A stretch of 64,000 bases of DNA. Source: Candidatus Aegiribacteria sp. MLS_C. GTDB lineage: Bacteria > Fermentibacterota > Fermentibacteria > Fermentibacterales > JCC-6. Position numbers and translations under genes: made by a program. Position 1 is the stretch's first letter; every line of letters begins with the position of its first letter. Below, piece after piece: positions 54,142-64,000 of this stretch. The notes under the pieces were generated by a model, which worked only from the letters and a program-made list of their open reading frames with translations, searched no databases and had not been told where the DNA came from. The DNA lies in the NCBI GenBank assembly GCA_002030045.1, contig LQBI01000004.1, forward strand, positions 1-64,000, written 5' to 3'.

Positions 54142-54217
54142 GCCTCGATAGCTCAGTTGGTAGAGCGGGTGGCTGTTAACCACTAGGTCCGAGGTTCGAG
54201 TCCTCGTCGAGGCGCCA
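54142..54217 (+). tRNA. tRNA-Asn (anticodon GTT)
   Basis: Full cloverleaf: acceptor GCCTCGA/TCGAGGC, D arm AGCTC...GAGC, anticodon stem GGTGG/CCACT around CTGTTAA (anticodon GTT), T arm CGAGG-TTCGAGT-CCTCG, discriminator G and encoded CCA. The serine recombinase frame ends in its anticodon loop on the opposite strand, so this tRNA is the apparent insertion site of the element to the right. The intact cloverleaf means the element restores, or does not break, the 3' half. Confidence 0.96.
54176..54217. other. Probable attachment site: recombinase end within tRNA-Asn 3' half
   Basis: Boundary between core genome and mobile element. To the left genes are high-GC and core-like; to the right the recombinase, AT-richer sequence and defence-type genes begin. 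The tRNA 3' half (anticodon loop to CCA) is the likely shared core of the attachment sites. I saw no second copy further right within the window, so the other junction should lie beyond 64,000. Confidence 0.5.
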
Positions 54218-55855
54218 AGCATGTCTCCCAGCGAACTCATTTCCAGCGGTTAACGATGAAGATCGTGTATGTGGTTGACTACCATGCACTCCAACTCGAA
54301 GGCCGTTATTCCCGTCCCAATAGACCCTGTTCACCACGGATTTCATCAGAGCCTTTTGTTCACGACCGTCAAGACGACCAATGGTTCGGGCGAAGTTGTC
54401 CAGCGCTATAACAACGGCTTCTGTCACCACTTTGTCGTTTCCACAGCCGCTGATACGTGCTTCCAGATGGAGGATGTTGTCCGTATTCTCCCTCTTTCTC
54501 TGACTCTGACGCTCAAGCTCCGCCTTAACCTCATTCTGAGCATTCTCATCGAGACTCCCAAGATTCTCCATTAGGGTCTTGATCTTATCATTGGTGCGTT
54601 TCAGGGTTTTCTGATGGACTTGAAGTTCTTTACGCATCCTCGGTAGGTCTGCGGTGATCTGATTGTTTGTCTCCTCGATGATCCTTGAAAGCCGATCGGG
54701 CTTGAAAGCAAGTTCTGATACACTCTTGATAACAGTCTCCTCAATCTCACTAGCAGGAACCGATCCAGTACATTCAGGAGTCTTGCATACATACCTGAAA
54801 TAACGAACCTCTCCCGGCTTCGTTGTTGAATCGGTCTTCATGGGCTTAAGGCACTTCCCGCAGTACATGAGTCCTGAAAGCAGATAGTTGTGTTTCCGTC
54901 TGGCAACGACATTGTGCCGCGTTGCATTGCCTTCATCAAGGACAGTCTGAACCTTATCGAAGAGTTGCTCGGGTACGATGGCTTCCCATGTTGCCTTGAC
55001 CTCTGAATAGAGCTGAGTCTCCTTCAGGGAATCCTGATCCACGTGTTGGTACTTCTTGTTGACTTGCAGTATACCGACATATGCCTTGTTCCTGAGTATC
55101 CTACGGACATTCTCCAGAGTGAATTTCTTTCCTCCTCGAACTACTCCCTGCTTGGAAATTCTCCGTTTTGTTCGATGTCCCTCGCGGTTCAGAAGCTCGA
55201 TAACTTTTCTTAGAGAGCCGAGTTTCAGATACTCCGTGAAAATATGTTGGACGATTACAGCCTCGTCCTTATTGACTACGAGCTCTCCCTGCTTATCTGC
55301 AAGGTCATATCCCAATGGCGGAACTCCACCAGTCCAGATACCCTTACCTGCTCGATTAACTTTACTGATCTGCATACGCTCGGAGGTCTGTTCGCGCTCC
55401 AGCTCAGCCAGTGCCATTAGGATGTATGAGATGAATCTGCCATATGATGAGGTGGTATCGATCTGCTGAGTAACACAGACAAAGCCAACACCACGCTTGT
55501 CGAGGTAGTCGAAGAACTCGATGAAGTCCCTGATGGACCTGCTAACCCTATCCAGCCGAGTACATAAAACTGTATTTACCGCTCCAGTCTCGATGTCCTG
55601 ATAGAGTTGCTGGAACTCGTCACTTTGGACTGACTTACTGCCGGAGATTCCCTCAAGAATATAGGTCTTCGCCTCTGTCCATTCTTCCTCTCTCACAGCA
55701 CCACGATCAGCTCTGATCTGATTCTGGTAGGCGATGTGTGCTCGCATCATATCTATCTGAAGTGTGGTCGATCCTTCCTCCACTCGAGCCTGTCCTAGAG
55801 TACTTACTCTCGCGATCAATCCGCACTTACGATAGACCATCGATATCGTCCTCAT
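54176..55855 (-). CDS. Large serine recombinase (integrase)
   Basis: 559 residues. Resolvase domain ~8-165: catalytic Ser in GLIARVSTLGQA, SRSIRDFIEFFDYL and YILMALAELEREQTSERM. A recombinase domain follows (NRAGKGIWTGGVPPLGYDLA..., ENVRRILRNKAYVGIL), then a zinc ribbon (MYCGKCLKPMK...YVCKTPECTGS) and a coiled coil (~395-470). It catalyses attP/attB integration and excision. The C terminus (AWRLDEDSNLGPSG) is encoded antisense to tRNA-Asn. ATG at 55855 or 55840; both overlap the upstream gene by 29 or 14 nt. Confidence 0.93.
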   Translation of the reverse strand: MRTISMVYRKCGLIARVSTLGQARVEEGSTTLQIDMMRAHIAYQNQIRADRGAVREEEWTEAKTYILEGISGSKSVQSDEFQQLYQDIETGAVNTVLCTRLDRVSRSIRDFIEFFDYLDKRGVGFVCVTQQIDTTSSYGRFISYILMALAELEREQTSERMQISKVNRAGKGIWTGGVPPLGYDLADKQGELVVNKDEAVIVQHIFTEYLKLGSLRKVIELLNREGHRTKRRISKQGVVRGGKKFTLENVRRILRNKAYVGILQVNKKYQHVDQDSLKETQLYSEVKATWEAIVPEQLFDKVQTVLDEGNATRHNVVARRKHNYLLSGLMYCGKCLKPMKTDSTTKPGEVRYFRYVCKTPECTGSVPASEIEETVIKSVSELAFKPDRLSRIIEETNNQITADLPRMRKELQVHQKTLKRTNDKIKTLMENLGSLDENAQNEVKAELERQSQRKRENTDNILHLEARISGCGNDKVVTEAVVIALDNFARTIGRLDGREQKALMKSVVNRVYWDGNNGLRVGVHGSQPHTRSSSLTAGNEFAGRHAWRLDEDSNLGPSG

Positions 55856-56258
55856 CTACCTGCCGTATAAGTCTGTCCTTGTACTCTATAGGAAGTTTCT
55901 CCCAGCCCTCTGCAATAGCTCTTACCCAGATAGGGTATCCTGCCCATTCTTCATCAGACAGTACGCCCTGCTCCCGCTTTTTCAGAAGCTCAGTAAGGGC
56001 CACGGCGTTACTTCTACCAATCATGTACTCAAGGAAGAACCGATCAGAGTCAGTACCTTCAAGAGATTTGCTCAACACCTTGGTTGATTCCGCTACCGCT
56101 CGTGCAGTGTACAAGATGAATTGGTCGATTCTCTCAGAAGTAGACTTGTCAGAAATGAATTCAATCTCAACCGTATACTTCTTCGAGGGTATGAAAGCAT
56201 CATGATCATCCCCGAGGATTGGTACATCAGGCAGAAACGGTACTTCAGAATTTTCCAA
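55827..56258 (-). CDS. Unknown protein encoded upstream of the recombinase
   Basis: 143 residues, no family recognised. It looks coding: acidic N terminus (NSEVPFLPDVPILGDDHDAF), a strand-rich stretch YTVEIEFISDKSTSERIDQFIL, and amphipathic helices (YTARAVAESTKVLSKSL, SDRFFLEYMIGRSNAVALTELLKKREQG), then a tryptophan-containing part WAGYPIWVRAIAEGWEKLP. Overlaps the recombinase start, so it may help integration or excision, for example as a directionality factor; this is inferred only from position. An 8-bp hairpin (56278-56303) lies just upstream. Confidence 0.6.
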   Translation of the reverse strand: MENSEVPFLPDVPILGDDHDAFIPSKKYTVEIEFISDKSTSERIDQFILYTARAVAESTKVLSKSLEGTDSDRFFLEYMIGRSNAVALTELLKKREQGVLSDEEWAGYPIWVRAIAEGWEKLPIEYKDRLIRQVDEDDIDGLS

Positions 56259-56759
56259 CTAACCTCTCCCATCATACCACAGAATCAGGTAACTCATTCT
56301 GTGACCCTACATCACGACTATGTGAAAGAGATAAGTTTCAGGCTACCTATGATAACCTTACGGTCATTTTGGCGACCCCAACAGTGTTCTAATCAAATTG
56401 ATAACTTTCGACTGCATGATCTGTCGGTCATTGATAAGATATCCTCGATAGCATTGAACCACTTGGACAAATAATCCAAGTGCTTCTATCAAAAGAATGT
56501 ACTAATCTATTCATCCTGTATTCAGTATGGAATTGTCTGATTGTACTAGAACTGCTTGTGATGTTCAGACACAGAACAGAAATTTATAATACCATGTATG
56601 TCTTTGAGTTATGGCGTATGATTGTCTAGGACTGAACTTTTAGAACGAATATGGGTATCTTACTTTGTCAGATCGCATGAAGCTGTCTGAACTCTAGATC
56701 GAAGAGCGTGATGATGAGTGGTACTGATAATGTCGGAAGTGGTCAAATGGTAACTAGTT
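56259..56759. other. Non-coding, AT-rich stretch with hairpins and a possible promoter
   Basis: No convincing gene. Two hairpins stand out: CACAGAAT/ATTCTGTG (8 bp, 56278-56303) and CACTTGG/CCAAGTG (7 bp, 56460-56482). A TATAAT box at 56585-56590 (+ strand) has only a weak -35 (TGTTCA, 17 nt upstream); if real, it would start a transcript near 56598 running into the inverted-repeat region. Confidence 0.4.
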
Positions 56760-57211
56760 ATGAGTGTGCACTACTCGCCAATGATTCGATTGGATTCAAT
56801 CACCGAATCCCACTCGGTATAAGCACACACCCGACAGTAAGTTTTTCTGAGAAATACAGTTCTCTATGGGGATGTGATTTCTCCAAAGCTCCGTTTTCGC
56901 ACTCATCTCTAAAAAGCTCGAATGAGTACGACAAATGCAACCCTTGCGTTTATCGCACCTATATACATCAATGGTCGAGAATGGTTGAACACAATAGTTA
57001 TTACTCGAACACAAATGGAAAGGATGACTCCAAGAGCTGCTCCTGCGAGTTGGACAATCTTGGAGCTAAGCATCTGCGGGAGCTGAGAGCAACTGCAGAC
57101 ACTCCTGACAAACGAGGACTTCGATCTATAGATCGGAGAGTAACTCGAAGGAGTGGCAGCCCAAAATGCGGGGCGAGGCCCCGCGGCTGCTGCTATGACT
57201 GAAGTCGAGGG

Positions 57212-57844
57212 ATGTTGACTGATGAAAATGAAACTGACACCATGAATAACACTCACAGCACTAATACTCAGAACACTGACACTCAGGAGAACACGGGTAG
57301 TAATCCTCTGAGCAGGAGGGTGAATACTGTACACAGACTAAGCACTCAGGAGGAGATTCTGAGCAGGAGAAAGTGTGGAGAGATTCCAGACTCTCTGTTC
57401 AGGGCAAGTAAGAGAATAGACAGGGCACGCGATCAGTTGCAGAGACTCCGTTCGATGATACACCGACACAAACAACTCTTAGCCGAGCACGCGCATAGGG
57501 CGATCACTTATAAGGTGATCGACAGTGTAAGAACAGGACTCACACAGACTCTACAGGAACTGAATTGCTCAGACTGCTGCAGTGTAGGGACTCTACGGAC
57601 GCTGGGACAATGGGTGTCCCGCGTCAGGGAAAGACTCAAGGTTACGGGGCGATCCGAGAATGGAGCTAATGTCGGCCGCATCAGCTCTAACCTCGGCATA
57701 CACCCGAACAGAGACGAGGAAGGGCGTAGAGGAGTGCTATACGGACTACATAGGGCACACCTAAGTAGATCTCAGTACACACTATGTGCGAGGCTGCTGA
57801 AGGCTGTTCCCATATCCTACGAGATGTACGAGCACTCATGGTAA
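57212..57844 (+). CDS. Hypothetical protein (210 aa), doubtful
   Basis: An uninterrupted 210-codon frame inside the inverted-repeat region. The first ~25 residues are Asn/Thr/Ser-rich (TMNNTHSTNTQNTDTQENTG), the rest basic and helical (ASKRIDRARDQLQRLRSMIHRHKQLLAEHAHRA, LGQWVSRVRERLKV). No family, no Shine-Dalgarno at the first ATG/TTG candidates, and many hairpins cross it, so it may be a by-product of structured RNA sequence. Kept because so long a stop-free frame is unlikely by chance at this base composition. It contains a 12-bp direct repeat, TCTGAGCAGGAG (57307-57318 and 57358-57369). Confidence 0.3.
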   Translation: MLTDENETDTMNNTHSTNTQNTDTQENTGSNPLSRRVNTVHRLSTQEEILSRRKCGEIPDSLFRASKRIDRARDQLQRLRSMIHRHKQLLAEHAHRAITYKVIDSVRTGLTQTLQELNCSDCCSVGTLRTLGQWVSRVRERLKVTGRSENGANVGRISSNLGIHPNRDEEGRRGVLYGLHRAHLSRSQYTLCARLLKAVPISYEMYEHSW

Positions 57845-57862
57845 GGACAAGACCCAGAGAAA

Positions 57863-57895
57863 GGGTACTAGAGGGTAGGCCTACCTCTAGTACCC
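57863..57895. repeat. 33-bp near-perfect palindrome
   Basis: GGGTACTAGA (57863-57872), a bulged G, then GGTAGG and its complement CCTACC followed by TCTAGTACCC (57886-57895). Sixteen base pairs meet with no loop, 18 bases after the stop of the 210-codon frame. It could be a cruciform, a dimeric protein site, a terminator stem or an RNA helix. Confidence 0.8.
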
Positions 57896-58642
57896 TCCAC
57901 GTACACCGAGCACGGGACCTCGACGATCGCGACCTTCGATCATCCAGCACCTGCATACACAACCACCCGTGCACGGCCAGACATGTGCGAACACTGACAG
58001 GCCCGGGCAGGACCTACAAACGTTCAACGACCGCTAGTCAGTTGAACGGGTGGTGGAGATGATAAGACGGTACCTCGCAATCGCAGGAGGTGCAGCCATG
58101 ATGGCTGAGATGCCTGAAGCGTCCCTTCCAGACAACAACTCACACACGATGGAAGAACGACGCGCACCAAACGATACGACGGCACTGACACTGTCATACT
58201 CCAACCCGCGTTGTCTGATGGAAGGACGAGGTACTACGAATCTACCTCCTCACCCAGCTCGAGATCGTCGTTCGAATCAGGCAACGCGGAGAGACCGCGC
58301 ATGAGATAGTGGATGATGTACTCCTCGCCGCAGAGAGAGTATTCCGCTAATGCTACCCAGATATACCCTACCACGATCACGAACAGGGTCTGGCTGGGCT
58401 GCTGTTATCGATATCCTCCATAGTAAGCTCATACGCGGTCTCAACCCCCGCCCACCCCGCGGCGCCAAGCGCCGCGGCACCAAATGAACGCAGGGGGCGA
58501 AGGGTGCCCCGCCCCTACCGGTCATTACACTATCGCGTTTATTGAGTTTACTTAATCTGGATAACCATCAATCTTGAATGCGAGGTGGCGATTAAAGTGG
58601 ATATGTCAGGTGCATGCGAGAAATACCTTCACAGAGCCAGAA

Positions 58643-58918
58643 CTATCCGATAGGCCTTCGATCAAGCACCTGACGGAAATGTTCTTCAATCTCTTTGTAT
58701 GACATGCAAAGAACGTCGGGAGGATAGTCTTCAAGACTCTTCATGAAAGGTATTGGAGCTTCAGTCTTAAGTTTGTCAGGATTCAATCTACGCCAAACAC
58801 TGTAGGCGATTCCCTCCAACTCATAGCAGGTACTGCAGTATACCCAGCTGACGGGTATTGGCCATGGACCTTGAGTCAGTCTACCTGAACTTCCGCAACA
58901 GCTACATTTATAACTCAC
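58643..58918 (-). CDS. Small zinc-ribbon protein
   Basis: 91 residues, no named family. An N-terminal SYKCSCCGSSG and, 20 residues later, YCSTCYELEG give two CxxC knuckles of a zinc ribbon. The rest is helical and acidic/basic mixed (SVWRRLNPDKLKTEAPIPF, MSYKEIEEHFRQVL). GTG start with GGAG nine bases upstream. It lies alone between the inverted-repeat region and an AT-rich intergenic stretch; possibly a nucleic-acid-binding or regulatory accessory gene of the element. Confidence 0.65.
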   Translation of the reverse strand: MSYKCSCCGSSGRLTQGPWPIPVSWVYCSTCYELEGIAYSVWRRLNPDKLKTEAPIPFMKSLEDYPPDVLCMSYKEIEEHFRQVLDRRPIG

Positions 58919-61196: not shown

Positions 61197-64000
61197 CTAC
61201 TCCCTGAGAGCCACGCGAGGATCGCCGGGTGGCGGATCGAGGATGGTCTGATACGGGGTATCTGAGTTGATTGCCTCGGACATGCGGTCGTAGATCTCGA
61301 GGATGGTGTTCTTAGTCCTGTATTCTTCGTGTTTAGCCTCATCCCTTTCTCTTACGATACGGAAGTGATCCAGCACATGTGAAACTGCGTCTCTAGCTGT
61401 GGGGAAAAACTCCAGTACTTCATTGCTACCCTCTACCTTCCATCGTTCCGGAACTCCAAAGTAAATATGTAACATCGCAGCATCAAGCTCTGCTCTTAGG
61501 ATACGACGCCTTTTTCGGTTCCATGTATATAGTTTCCCTGAGTCTATTCCATTCAACTCGGCTCCAAGGAGCATGTCGACAGATGTTCGGGTTAGCTCAA
61601 TGATCCTTGACATCACCCAAGAGCTGAGATCGATTCCTGTATTCCAAGGACATACCTGTTTGAGTATTGAATGTGGTACTACAGGTAGCTGTTTTAGGAT
61701 GAAGTAACCCAGCGATGATCCGCCGAGCTTCTGTCGAGTGCAGTAGTCGAAGATGAATGAGTTGAGACATGCAAGCAAGATACAGGTTGCTGCTTGTTGT
61801 CCGCCGTGAAACATAATCGGTGCTTTGTGATTAACTGCGTACAATGGTAGAATAGCGAACACTGCAGTCCTCGCAACTACCGAGCTTGTAACGTCCCTGA
61901 ATGCAAGCAGGAACTGTGGTTTGCCGAGCCCTTCAAGTCGAGCTGCCACCTTATCCTCATGCACCCAGTAGCGGGGCAGTGTGAGATGGCACTCATCCTC
62001 ATGCTGCTCATCGGTAAGCTCTGGGAGTTTGCCTTGTCGAGCTTGAGCTTCAGTCTGACCCTCATACGTGCCGAACCGGTGGTCATACTGCCAGAACATC
62101 TTCCCTTCATAGAGCGGTAGGTACTTCTCCTCTCCCCTTTCGAAAACGTTACCGTTGAGTATCCATCCCTGATCCTCGAGCTGCTCCCTCGTCCGGAAGA
62201 GAATTGAGTCGTTGGACATATCGAACATCCGCAGGAATTTGATACCCCACGGATTCCCATTCTCAGGATCATTCTCATTGATCAGCACAGGGATACGTCG
62301 ATAGATGTACTTAGTGAGTTCCGCGTCCTTTTTCGAGCGAAAGATAGGACAAGTCATAGTGTTAGGGTTCAATAGACGAAACTCATCAGAGGACATGGAG
62401 AAGTGCCTTTCGGATTCACTGAGGTCAGTCGTTGTATAGGCGCCAAAAAGCAGGTCTGCTAACTGAATGTTGCAGTCGACGCCACCGATGACCAACAGGC
62501 AAAACTGCACTCTATGGTCAATGTGCGGGAATAACCTAGCTTCATTGATAAAAGCCTGATAGCTAACGAGAGCTGATCTCTCGACCAAGTCTTGAAAGAA
62601 GTACTTTGTGGTATCGTCTGTAGCGATGCCGGACGGGACAATACAACCAACTCGTCCTCTACCGCTTATCAGGCTACGCTTGAGTTCAGCGAACACAGTG
62701 TATGTGTTAACATCTCCCCTACCACACAACGGGAAGTGACCAGACTCCCTGAGCAGGCTACTTTCGCCTTCAGCCATACGTTTGGTATCTTGGAATGCTC
62801 TGAAAAGCTCAGGATCACTCTCCTTGAGCCCCTTGATCAATCTTCGCCGTGCAGCTGCATTGGGTGCATTCGCAATCCGTTCACTTCGTCCCGCGAAGAA
62901 CTCCTTCTCCTGAAGCTTAACACGCTCCCACGGCGGATTACCCAGCACCACATCGAATCCGGGATCATCCCCGGTGAACACATCCGGATACTCTAGATGC
63001 CAGTGGAAGAACTTATACATCCCCGCCAGACGCTGGACTTCGTCTTTTATATCAGTCGGAACTGTATCTGCCTGCCCCTGAAGCCTTCGAATGGTGTCTG
63101 TGGTGATAAACTGTATGACCCCATCTGTCTTATTCCACACGAAGGCTGAACACCAAGCATCCGCTACAAGCTTCGCGTCGCGGAGCTGTCTTGATGTTTC
63201 GAGGGCGTTGTATCTGGATTCCTTCTGCTTGAGTTCCAGTACGTTCTCTTCGGATTGGTTATCAATCTCAGCTACTTGTAGCGCAATGGTTCTGATGTTG
63301 TCCTCGAACGTCCCCACGTCATCAAACAGCAGCCTCATCTGACCTTTACGTTCCTGCTTGTTAGCCATTTTTAGCTTGGAGCAGACCTTCTTGTCATCGC
63401 CTGTGATCGGCTTGAAGGCTCCATCAGGGATGCCGTCCTTGATGAGTTCAGGAGTAGTTCCGAGTAGACTGTTACCACATTTAATGTGGTGGTCGAGGAA
63501 TGAGAGGGGTTTACCGGGTTCAAGAGCCTCGAGCCAGAGGCTGACTTTGCAGAGTTCCACCGCCATAGGGTTGATATCCACACCGTAGATACAGTGGCTA
63601 ATCACATCCCTGAGAGCATGTCTGTAGGGCTCAGGGGCAGGTTCATCTTCACCAGTACGTATGGCTGCGAGACGCTTTGCCATTCTGTGTGCAGCGGCGA
63701 TAAGGAAGTGGCCTGAGCCGGATGCTGGATCGCAAACCTTAATACTCAGGAGAGCTTGTTCAGCTCCATCCGGTCCGTTTCTTCTGCCCTGTTCAATCCT
63801 TTGGTCCATCACCGGTTCGAGGGCGGAGTTGAGGAGTTCGTTGATCAGACTTGTGGGAGTGTAGTAACTGCCTGTGCTCTTACGTTCGTGCCCTGCCAGT
63901 GTCTTGAGGGAGAAATCGGATGTTTCAGTGTTGATCTCGGGCTGAAGCTCGAGGAGTGATTCGTACACGCTGCCAAGCTCCTCCGAACCGAGATTACGGA
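61197..64000 (-). CDS. Eco57I/PglX-like N6-adenine DNA methylase, partial
   Basis: 933 residues visible; the frame stays open to the window edge, so the N terminus is missing. It begins inside [18 protein letters not shown], a stretch usual in large defence methylases, followed by [19 protein letters not shown] motif [42 protein letters not shown], catalytic motif [17 protein letters not shown] and a target-recognition region. Closest families are type IIG restriction-modification enzymes, BREX PglX and DISARM DrmMI; partners lie outside the window. The gene is minus-strand, so its upstream neighbours would be to the right. Confidence 0.85.

Follow-up and report, generated by a model that had tools for sequence, protein, structure and literature searches.

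GOLLD, ROOL, and OLE are large bacterial RNAs whose functions are still poorly understood. GOLLD is an ornate RNA of more than 800 nt that phages and prophages carry, in many cases close to tRNAs, and that makes intermolecular contacts through palindromic loops (PMC12286853). OLE, which is also ornate, is about 600 nt long, has a GGCC palindromic loop in its dimer contacts (PMC12286853), and occurs mostly in Bacillota (PMC12054373). ROOL (RF03087) is a large RNA of mobile elements, about 550 to 660 nt long, with extensive helices (PMC12286853, PMC5643018). ROOL has itself been mistaken for a gene, LSL_1885 being a false annotation of this kind (PMC5643018).

We examined a 64,000-nucleotide stretch of DNA from Candidatus Aegiribacteria sp. 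MLS_C (the window), which is part of an 87,914-base contig (C4) in an assembly of 2.98 Mb and 35 contigs. An earlier note on this DNA had pointed to a giant structured RNA, likened to GOLLD and ROOL, next to a tRNA-inserted serine recombinase. Here, we describe a region of excess folding at 57020-58540 that stands out in both stem counts and folding energies relative to shuffled sequence. With moderate confidence, we interpret this region as an orphan large structured RNA, probably encoded on the plus strand, that lies alongside defence-like genes on an island with a serine recombinase.

RESULTS

The island carries, as had been claimed, a serine recombinase inserted at a tRNA. The tRNA-Asn (GTT) gene at 54142-54217 (+) is overlapped at its 3' end by the gene for a large serine recombinase of 559 aa (54176-55855, -), which matches Pfam Resolvase, Recombinase, and Zn_ribbon_recom as well as PHROG integrase. 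The same integration site is used in three relatives (G021, G022, and G025), where tRNA-Asn is occupied by recombinases of 56 to 57% identity; in a fourth (G035), a recombinase 51% identical lies in tRNA-Arg. A repeat of the tRNA-Asn 3' end that would mark the other limit of the island was searched for and not found. A 143-aa gene (55827-56258, -) adjoins the recombinase gene, their ends overlapping; what stands in its place in one relative matches it only marginally (E = 0.023), and its product may be an accessory or directionality factor. This gene and a 91-aa ORF (58643-58918, -) flank the candidate. Because both are on the minus strand, a plus-strand unit would be divergent from the former and convergent with the latter. 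An A+T-rich gap (56,260-57,020) separates the 143-aa gene from the folded region.

Among the island genes beyond the candidate is one for a DrmMI-like methyltransferase (61197-63968), and the island also encodes a DpdE/DrmD-like SNF2 helicase, which matches DpdE best (E = 1.5e-238), and a helicase of 1731 aa with Druantia DruE as its best match. The defence-like cluster, of mixed affinities, covers 61197-63968 of the window and L020:1228-10252. A UvrA-like protein of 1609 aa (L020:10850-15679) is much longer than UvrA and falls below the family cut-off; it is followed by a small P-loop kinase-like ORF and by two radical-SAM-like proteins encoded on the other strand. The same contig carries a second serine recombinase (G000:C4:83597-85099, L014), about 28 kb further on and 31% identical to the first. 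Of the mobile-element setting near a tRNA that had been compared with that of GOLLD and ROOL, the tRNA-integrated recombinase is supported, but the lone tRNA is the integration site and the visible cargo is defence-like, not phage structural.

We confirmed that the folding excess in this region is genuine and unusual. When scored with strict penalties against 200 dinucleotide-preserving shuffles, the ten best stems within 57000-58540 sum to 274, whereas the shuffles average 219 and peak at 252, and none of the 200 reaches this sum (a version with looser penalties was uninformative). The corresponding z-score is 5.0, versus 2.3 for the runner-up when 1.5-kb pieces were taken at 3-kb intervals across the 88-kb contig; no other sampled piece approaches the region. 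Minimum free energy (MFE) folding of 57560-58560 yields -387.5 kcal/mol on the plus strand versus -326.9 +/- 7.9 in shuffles (z = -7.7), and z = -4.2 on the minus strand. For 57850-58540, the values are z = -7.8 (+) and -3.6 (-), and for 56900-57800 they are -4.0 (+) and -6.2 (-). Elsewhere on the contig, with the region itself left out, windowed folding z has a mean of -0.35 and a standard deviation of 1.2. Folding better than shuffled sequence, a check that the earlier note had named, is therefore observed for both the 690 nt at 57850-58540 and the stem sum. The excess extends from about 57,020 to about 58,540, coinciding with a distinct A-over-T skew, and 56500-56950 folds unremarkably. Strong helices had been described as crowding into 56760-58515; this is accurate for approximately 57,020-58,540, but not for the first 260 bases, which have no excess. 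Within the region, plus-strand structure is not above chance in the first 300 bases of an overlapping ORF (approximately 57,180-57,480).

The predicted plus-strand fold begins with a 5' hairpin cluster (57026-57190), where 150-nt windows reach z = -5.0 and -5.1. Its helices are 57028-57035/57058-57065, 57073-57079/57093-57099, and 57119-57126/57131-57138, together with 57156-57161/57185-57190, which encloses 57168-57174/57178-57184. Farther along are an 11-bp hairpin with one bulge (57598-57625, p = 0.98) and a three-part stem (57641-57709) with the 6-nt palindrome CGGCCG (57,673-57,678) in its predicted loop. The next element, a 13-bp hairpin at 57862-57896 that occurs once in the genome, has the loop GTAGGCCTA, which includes the 8-nt palindrome TAGGCCTA within 57,875-57,883. 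It lies in the most strongly folded part (57850-58540), which also contains a branched domain (58054-58203) closed by 58054-58064/58192-58203 and 58068-58077/58177-58187 (p = 0.92-0.99), a 14-bp helix (58206-58219/58276-58289, p = 0.97) with inner stems, and a domain (58291-58442) closed by the 15-position helix 58291-58305/58428-58442 (p = 0.99). Two G+C-rich hairpins (58457-58526) form the predicted 3' end ahead of the convergent 91-aa ORF; a consensus scan found no U-tract terminator there.

Three of the helices singled out in the earlier note, namely the 11-bp bulged hairpin, the near-palindrome at 57862-57896, and 58291-58305/58428-58442, are present and predicted on the plus strand with probabilities of 0.96-0.99. 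For a fourth, 58120-58136/58210-58228, the complementarity exists, but its formation would rule out both the better 58206-58219/58276-58289 (14 bp) and 58119-58130/58150-58163, and it counts as an alternative to them, not as an independent helix. The arms of hairpins 58119-58163 and 58205-58289 are cross-complementary and give mutually exclusive long helices, which could represent a conformational switch or be left over from an inverted duplication.

A 210-codon ORF (57212-57844, +) spans the 5' half of the region, leaving a coding reading open for that half. In such a reading, the 5' half would be an ordinary orphan gene for a helical, basic protein of 210 aa, and the folded flanks would be mRNA untranslated regions acting on stability or expression. 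An ORF this long arises in just 10 of 2000 shuffles, its weak period-3 signal of 2.6 is reached by 8 of 300, and its helical amphipathicity exceeds that of shuffles at about 1 in 80. Furthermore, AlphaFold, run on the single sequence, places one confident helix at residues 61-90 (pLDDT 75-89), the plus strand inside the ORF is no more folded than codon-shuffled versions (z = -1.7), and the stop codon directly precedes the hairpin at 57862-57896. We nevertheless consider an orphan gene unlikely. The product has no match in Pfam, PHROG, NCBIfam, or PDB, and other protein searches return no relatives, in line with the earlier statement that no protein family is visible here. Mean pLDDT is 49.8, and codon preference is neutral (-0.005 versus 0.033 in neighbouring frames), whereas the five island genes tested all favour their own frame. 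As a yardstick for the period-3 signal, the four longest island genes tested score 3.7-13, a 432-nt gene scores 4.5, and a 276-nt gene has none. In addition, a folded 3' region of 690 nt is long for a bacterial untranslated region. We found no period-3 signal above chance in these 690 nt (57,850-58,540), which are untouched by the ORF and without coding signal and are the clearest non-coding part of the candidate.

To look for relatives of the candidate, we used blastn against phages and plasmids and against 99 and then 385 genomes (including 42 of the phylum), scans with translated patterns in viral and genome collections, matching of exact 18-mers to viral contigs, and single-sequence covariance models of domains 58054-58203 (R1) and 58291-58442 (R2); none returned a relative. 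The recombinase relatives G021, G022, and G025 (tRNA-Asn) and G035 (tRNA-Arg) contain no comparable region in the 8 kb scanned in each. Searches of this type would pick up only near relatives; they show that the collections searched lack a close one, and relatives may still exist. We set aside an R1 match in G032 that was not significant (E = 1), a chance blastn match in G060 (33 nt, 88%) to G+C-rich DNA that is tiled by long ORFs and lacks excess folding, and two viral contigs that share only a common 18-mer. A repeat family or MITE was also rejected, because the region is single-copy in the genome, palindrome self-match aside. The lack of both homologs and codon signal would be expected of functionless DNA, decayed or foreign and made palindrome-rich by template switching or foldback mutation, and the segments 58119-58136 and 58267-58289 do resemble an inverted duplication. 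However, no fewer than ten distinct stems stand above chance across 1.5 kb, and the excess has sharp limits and coincides with the A-over-T skew; we rate this explanation as slightly less credible than an orphan gene.

The candidate matched no Rfam family. A cmscan search of Rfam, at gathering thresholds and at E <= 10, detected no GOLLD, ROOL, or OLE and no group I or II intron or HEARO; the best loose matches were to unrelated eukaryotic families. As a positive control, the same search detected ROOL in the Lactobacillus salivarius megaplasmid pMP118 (130 bits). Judged by this Rfam model test, the candidate is not a member of GOLLD, ROOL, or OLE, and the comparison drawn earlier, taken as membership, lacks support. 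When we applied our folding measure to the pMP118 ROOL, its sense strand gave z = -1.5; the candidate has the more stable structure by far, but a strong MFE fold does not in itself single out RNA of the ROOL kind.

The plus strand is our better guess for the candidate. It is favored by the folding of the 3' part, given above, and by gene order, whereas folding in the 5' part (z = -4.9 on the minus strand versus -4.0 on the plus strand) and the count of wobble pairs adjoining the shared helices of 57560-58560 (16 versus 6) point to the minus strand. The wobble surplus may simply reflect the G- and T-rich composition of the minus strand. We rejected A-rich unpaired bases and loops as evidence for the plus strand; shuffles give the same result through base composition. 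Folding that matters in DNA, as a cluster of inverted repeats providing binding or processing sites for the mobile element (a transfer or replication origin, recombination accessory sites, or protein-binding dyads), would suit this mixed strand evidence, the above-chance folding of both strands, the adjoining integrase, and the hairpin at 57862-57896, which as DNA is a near-perfect, almost loopless 35-bp palindrome, but it is the least probable of all the readings considered here, given that 1.5 kb of dispersed, differing helices far exceeds the usual origin, that the few island proteins we examined included no relaxase or replication protein, and that the region is absent from related islands of the same recombinase family.

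DISCUSSION

The reading that we prefer, an orphan large structured RNA, would involve a transcript of about 1.5 kb, or at least the 690 nt at 57,850-58,540, carried as cargo of the island. Transcription on the plus strand would start from the A+T-rich gap, divergent from the 143-aa gene, and the RNA would probably end at the G+C-rich hairpins ahead of the convergent 91-aa ORF. Such an RNA may act through its own fold, with a scaffold or a self-assembling particle as the likeliest form, and its two palindromic loops would be natural sites for pairing between RNA copies. A GOLLD- or ROOL-like scaffold role is no more than an analogy. A bolder version of this reading, which we regard as improbable, is that the locus represents a new class of giant bacterial RNA, at about 1.5 kb larger than most GOLLD RNAs, that occurs beside defence-like genes and assembles by palindromic kissing loops. 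Few bacterial RNA classes of such size are known. If true, a further, unrelated class from another lineage and beside defence-like genes would imply that the emergence of large ornate RNAs on mobile elements is a recurrent event, and it would offer a new system for asking what they do.

Apart from the missing match to the models of all three known RNAs, the candidate shares different features with each. Like ROOL, it is large, helix-rich, and borne on a mobile element, and its overlap with an ORF recalls the mistaken gene of ROOL. However, it shows no sequence match to ROOL, folds far more strongly, and sits on a defence-carrying island at one tRNA, away from any tRNA array. OLE is not known from islands like this one; the candidate resembles OLE in its large size and in its palindromic loop (CGGCCG, compared with GGCC in OLE). 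With GOLLD, it has in common large size and hairpin loops that contain palindromes, but we saw neither a tRNA array nor, among the proteins examined, a phage structural gene. Oligomerization through palindromic loops, as in OLE and GOLLD (PMC12286853), is a lead that these shared loops suggest for the candidate.
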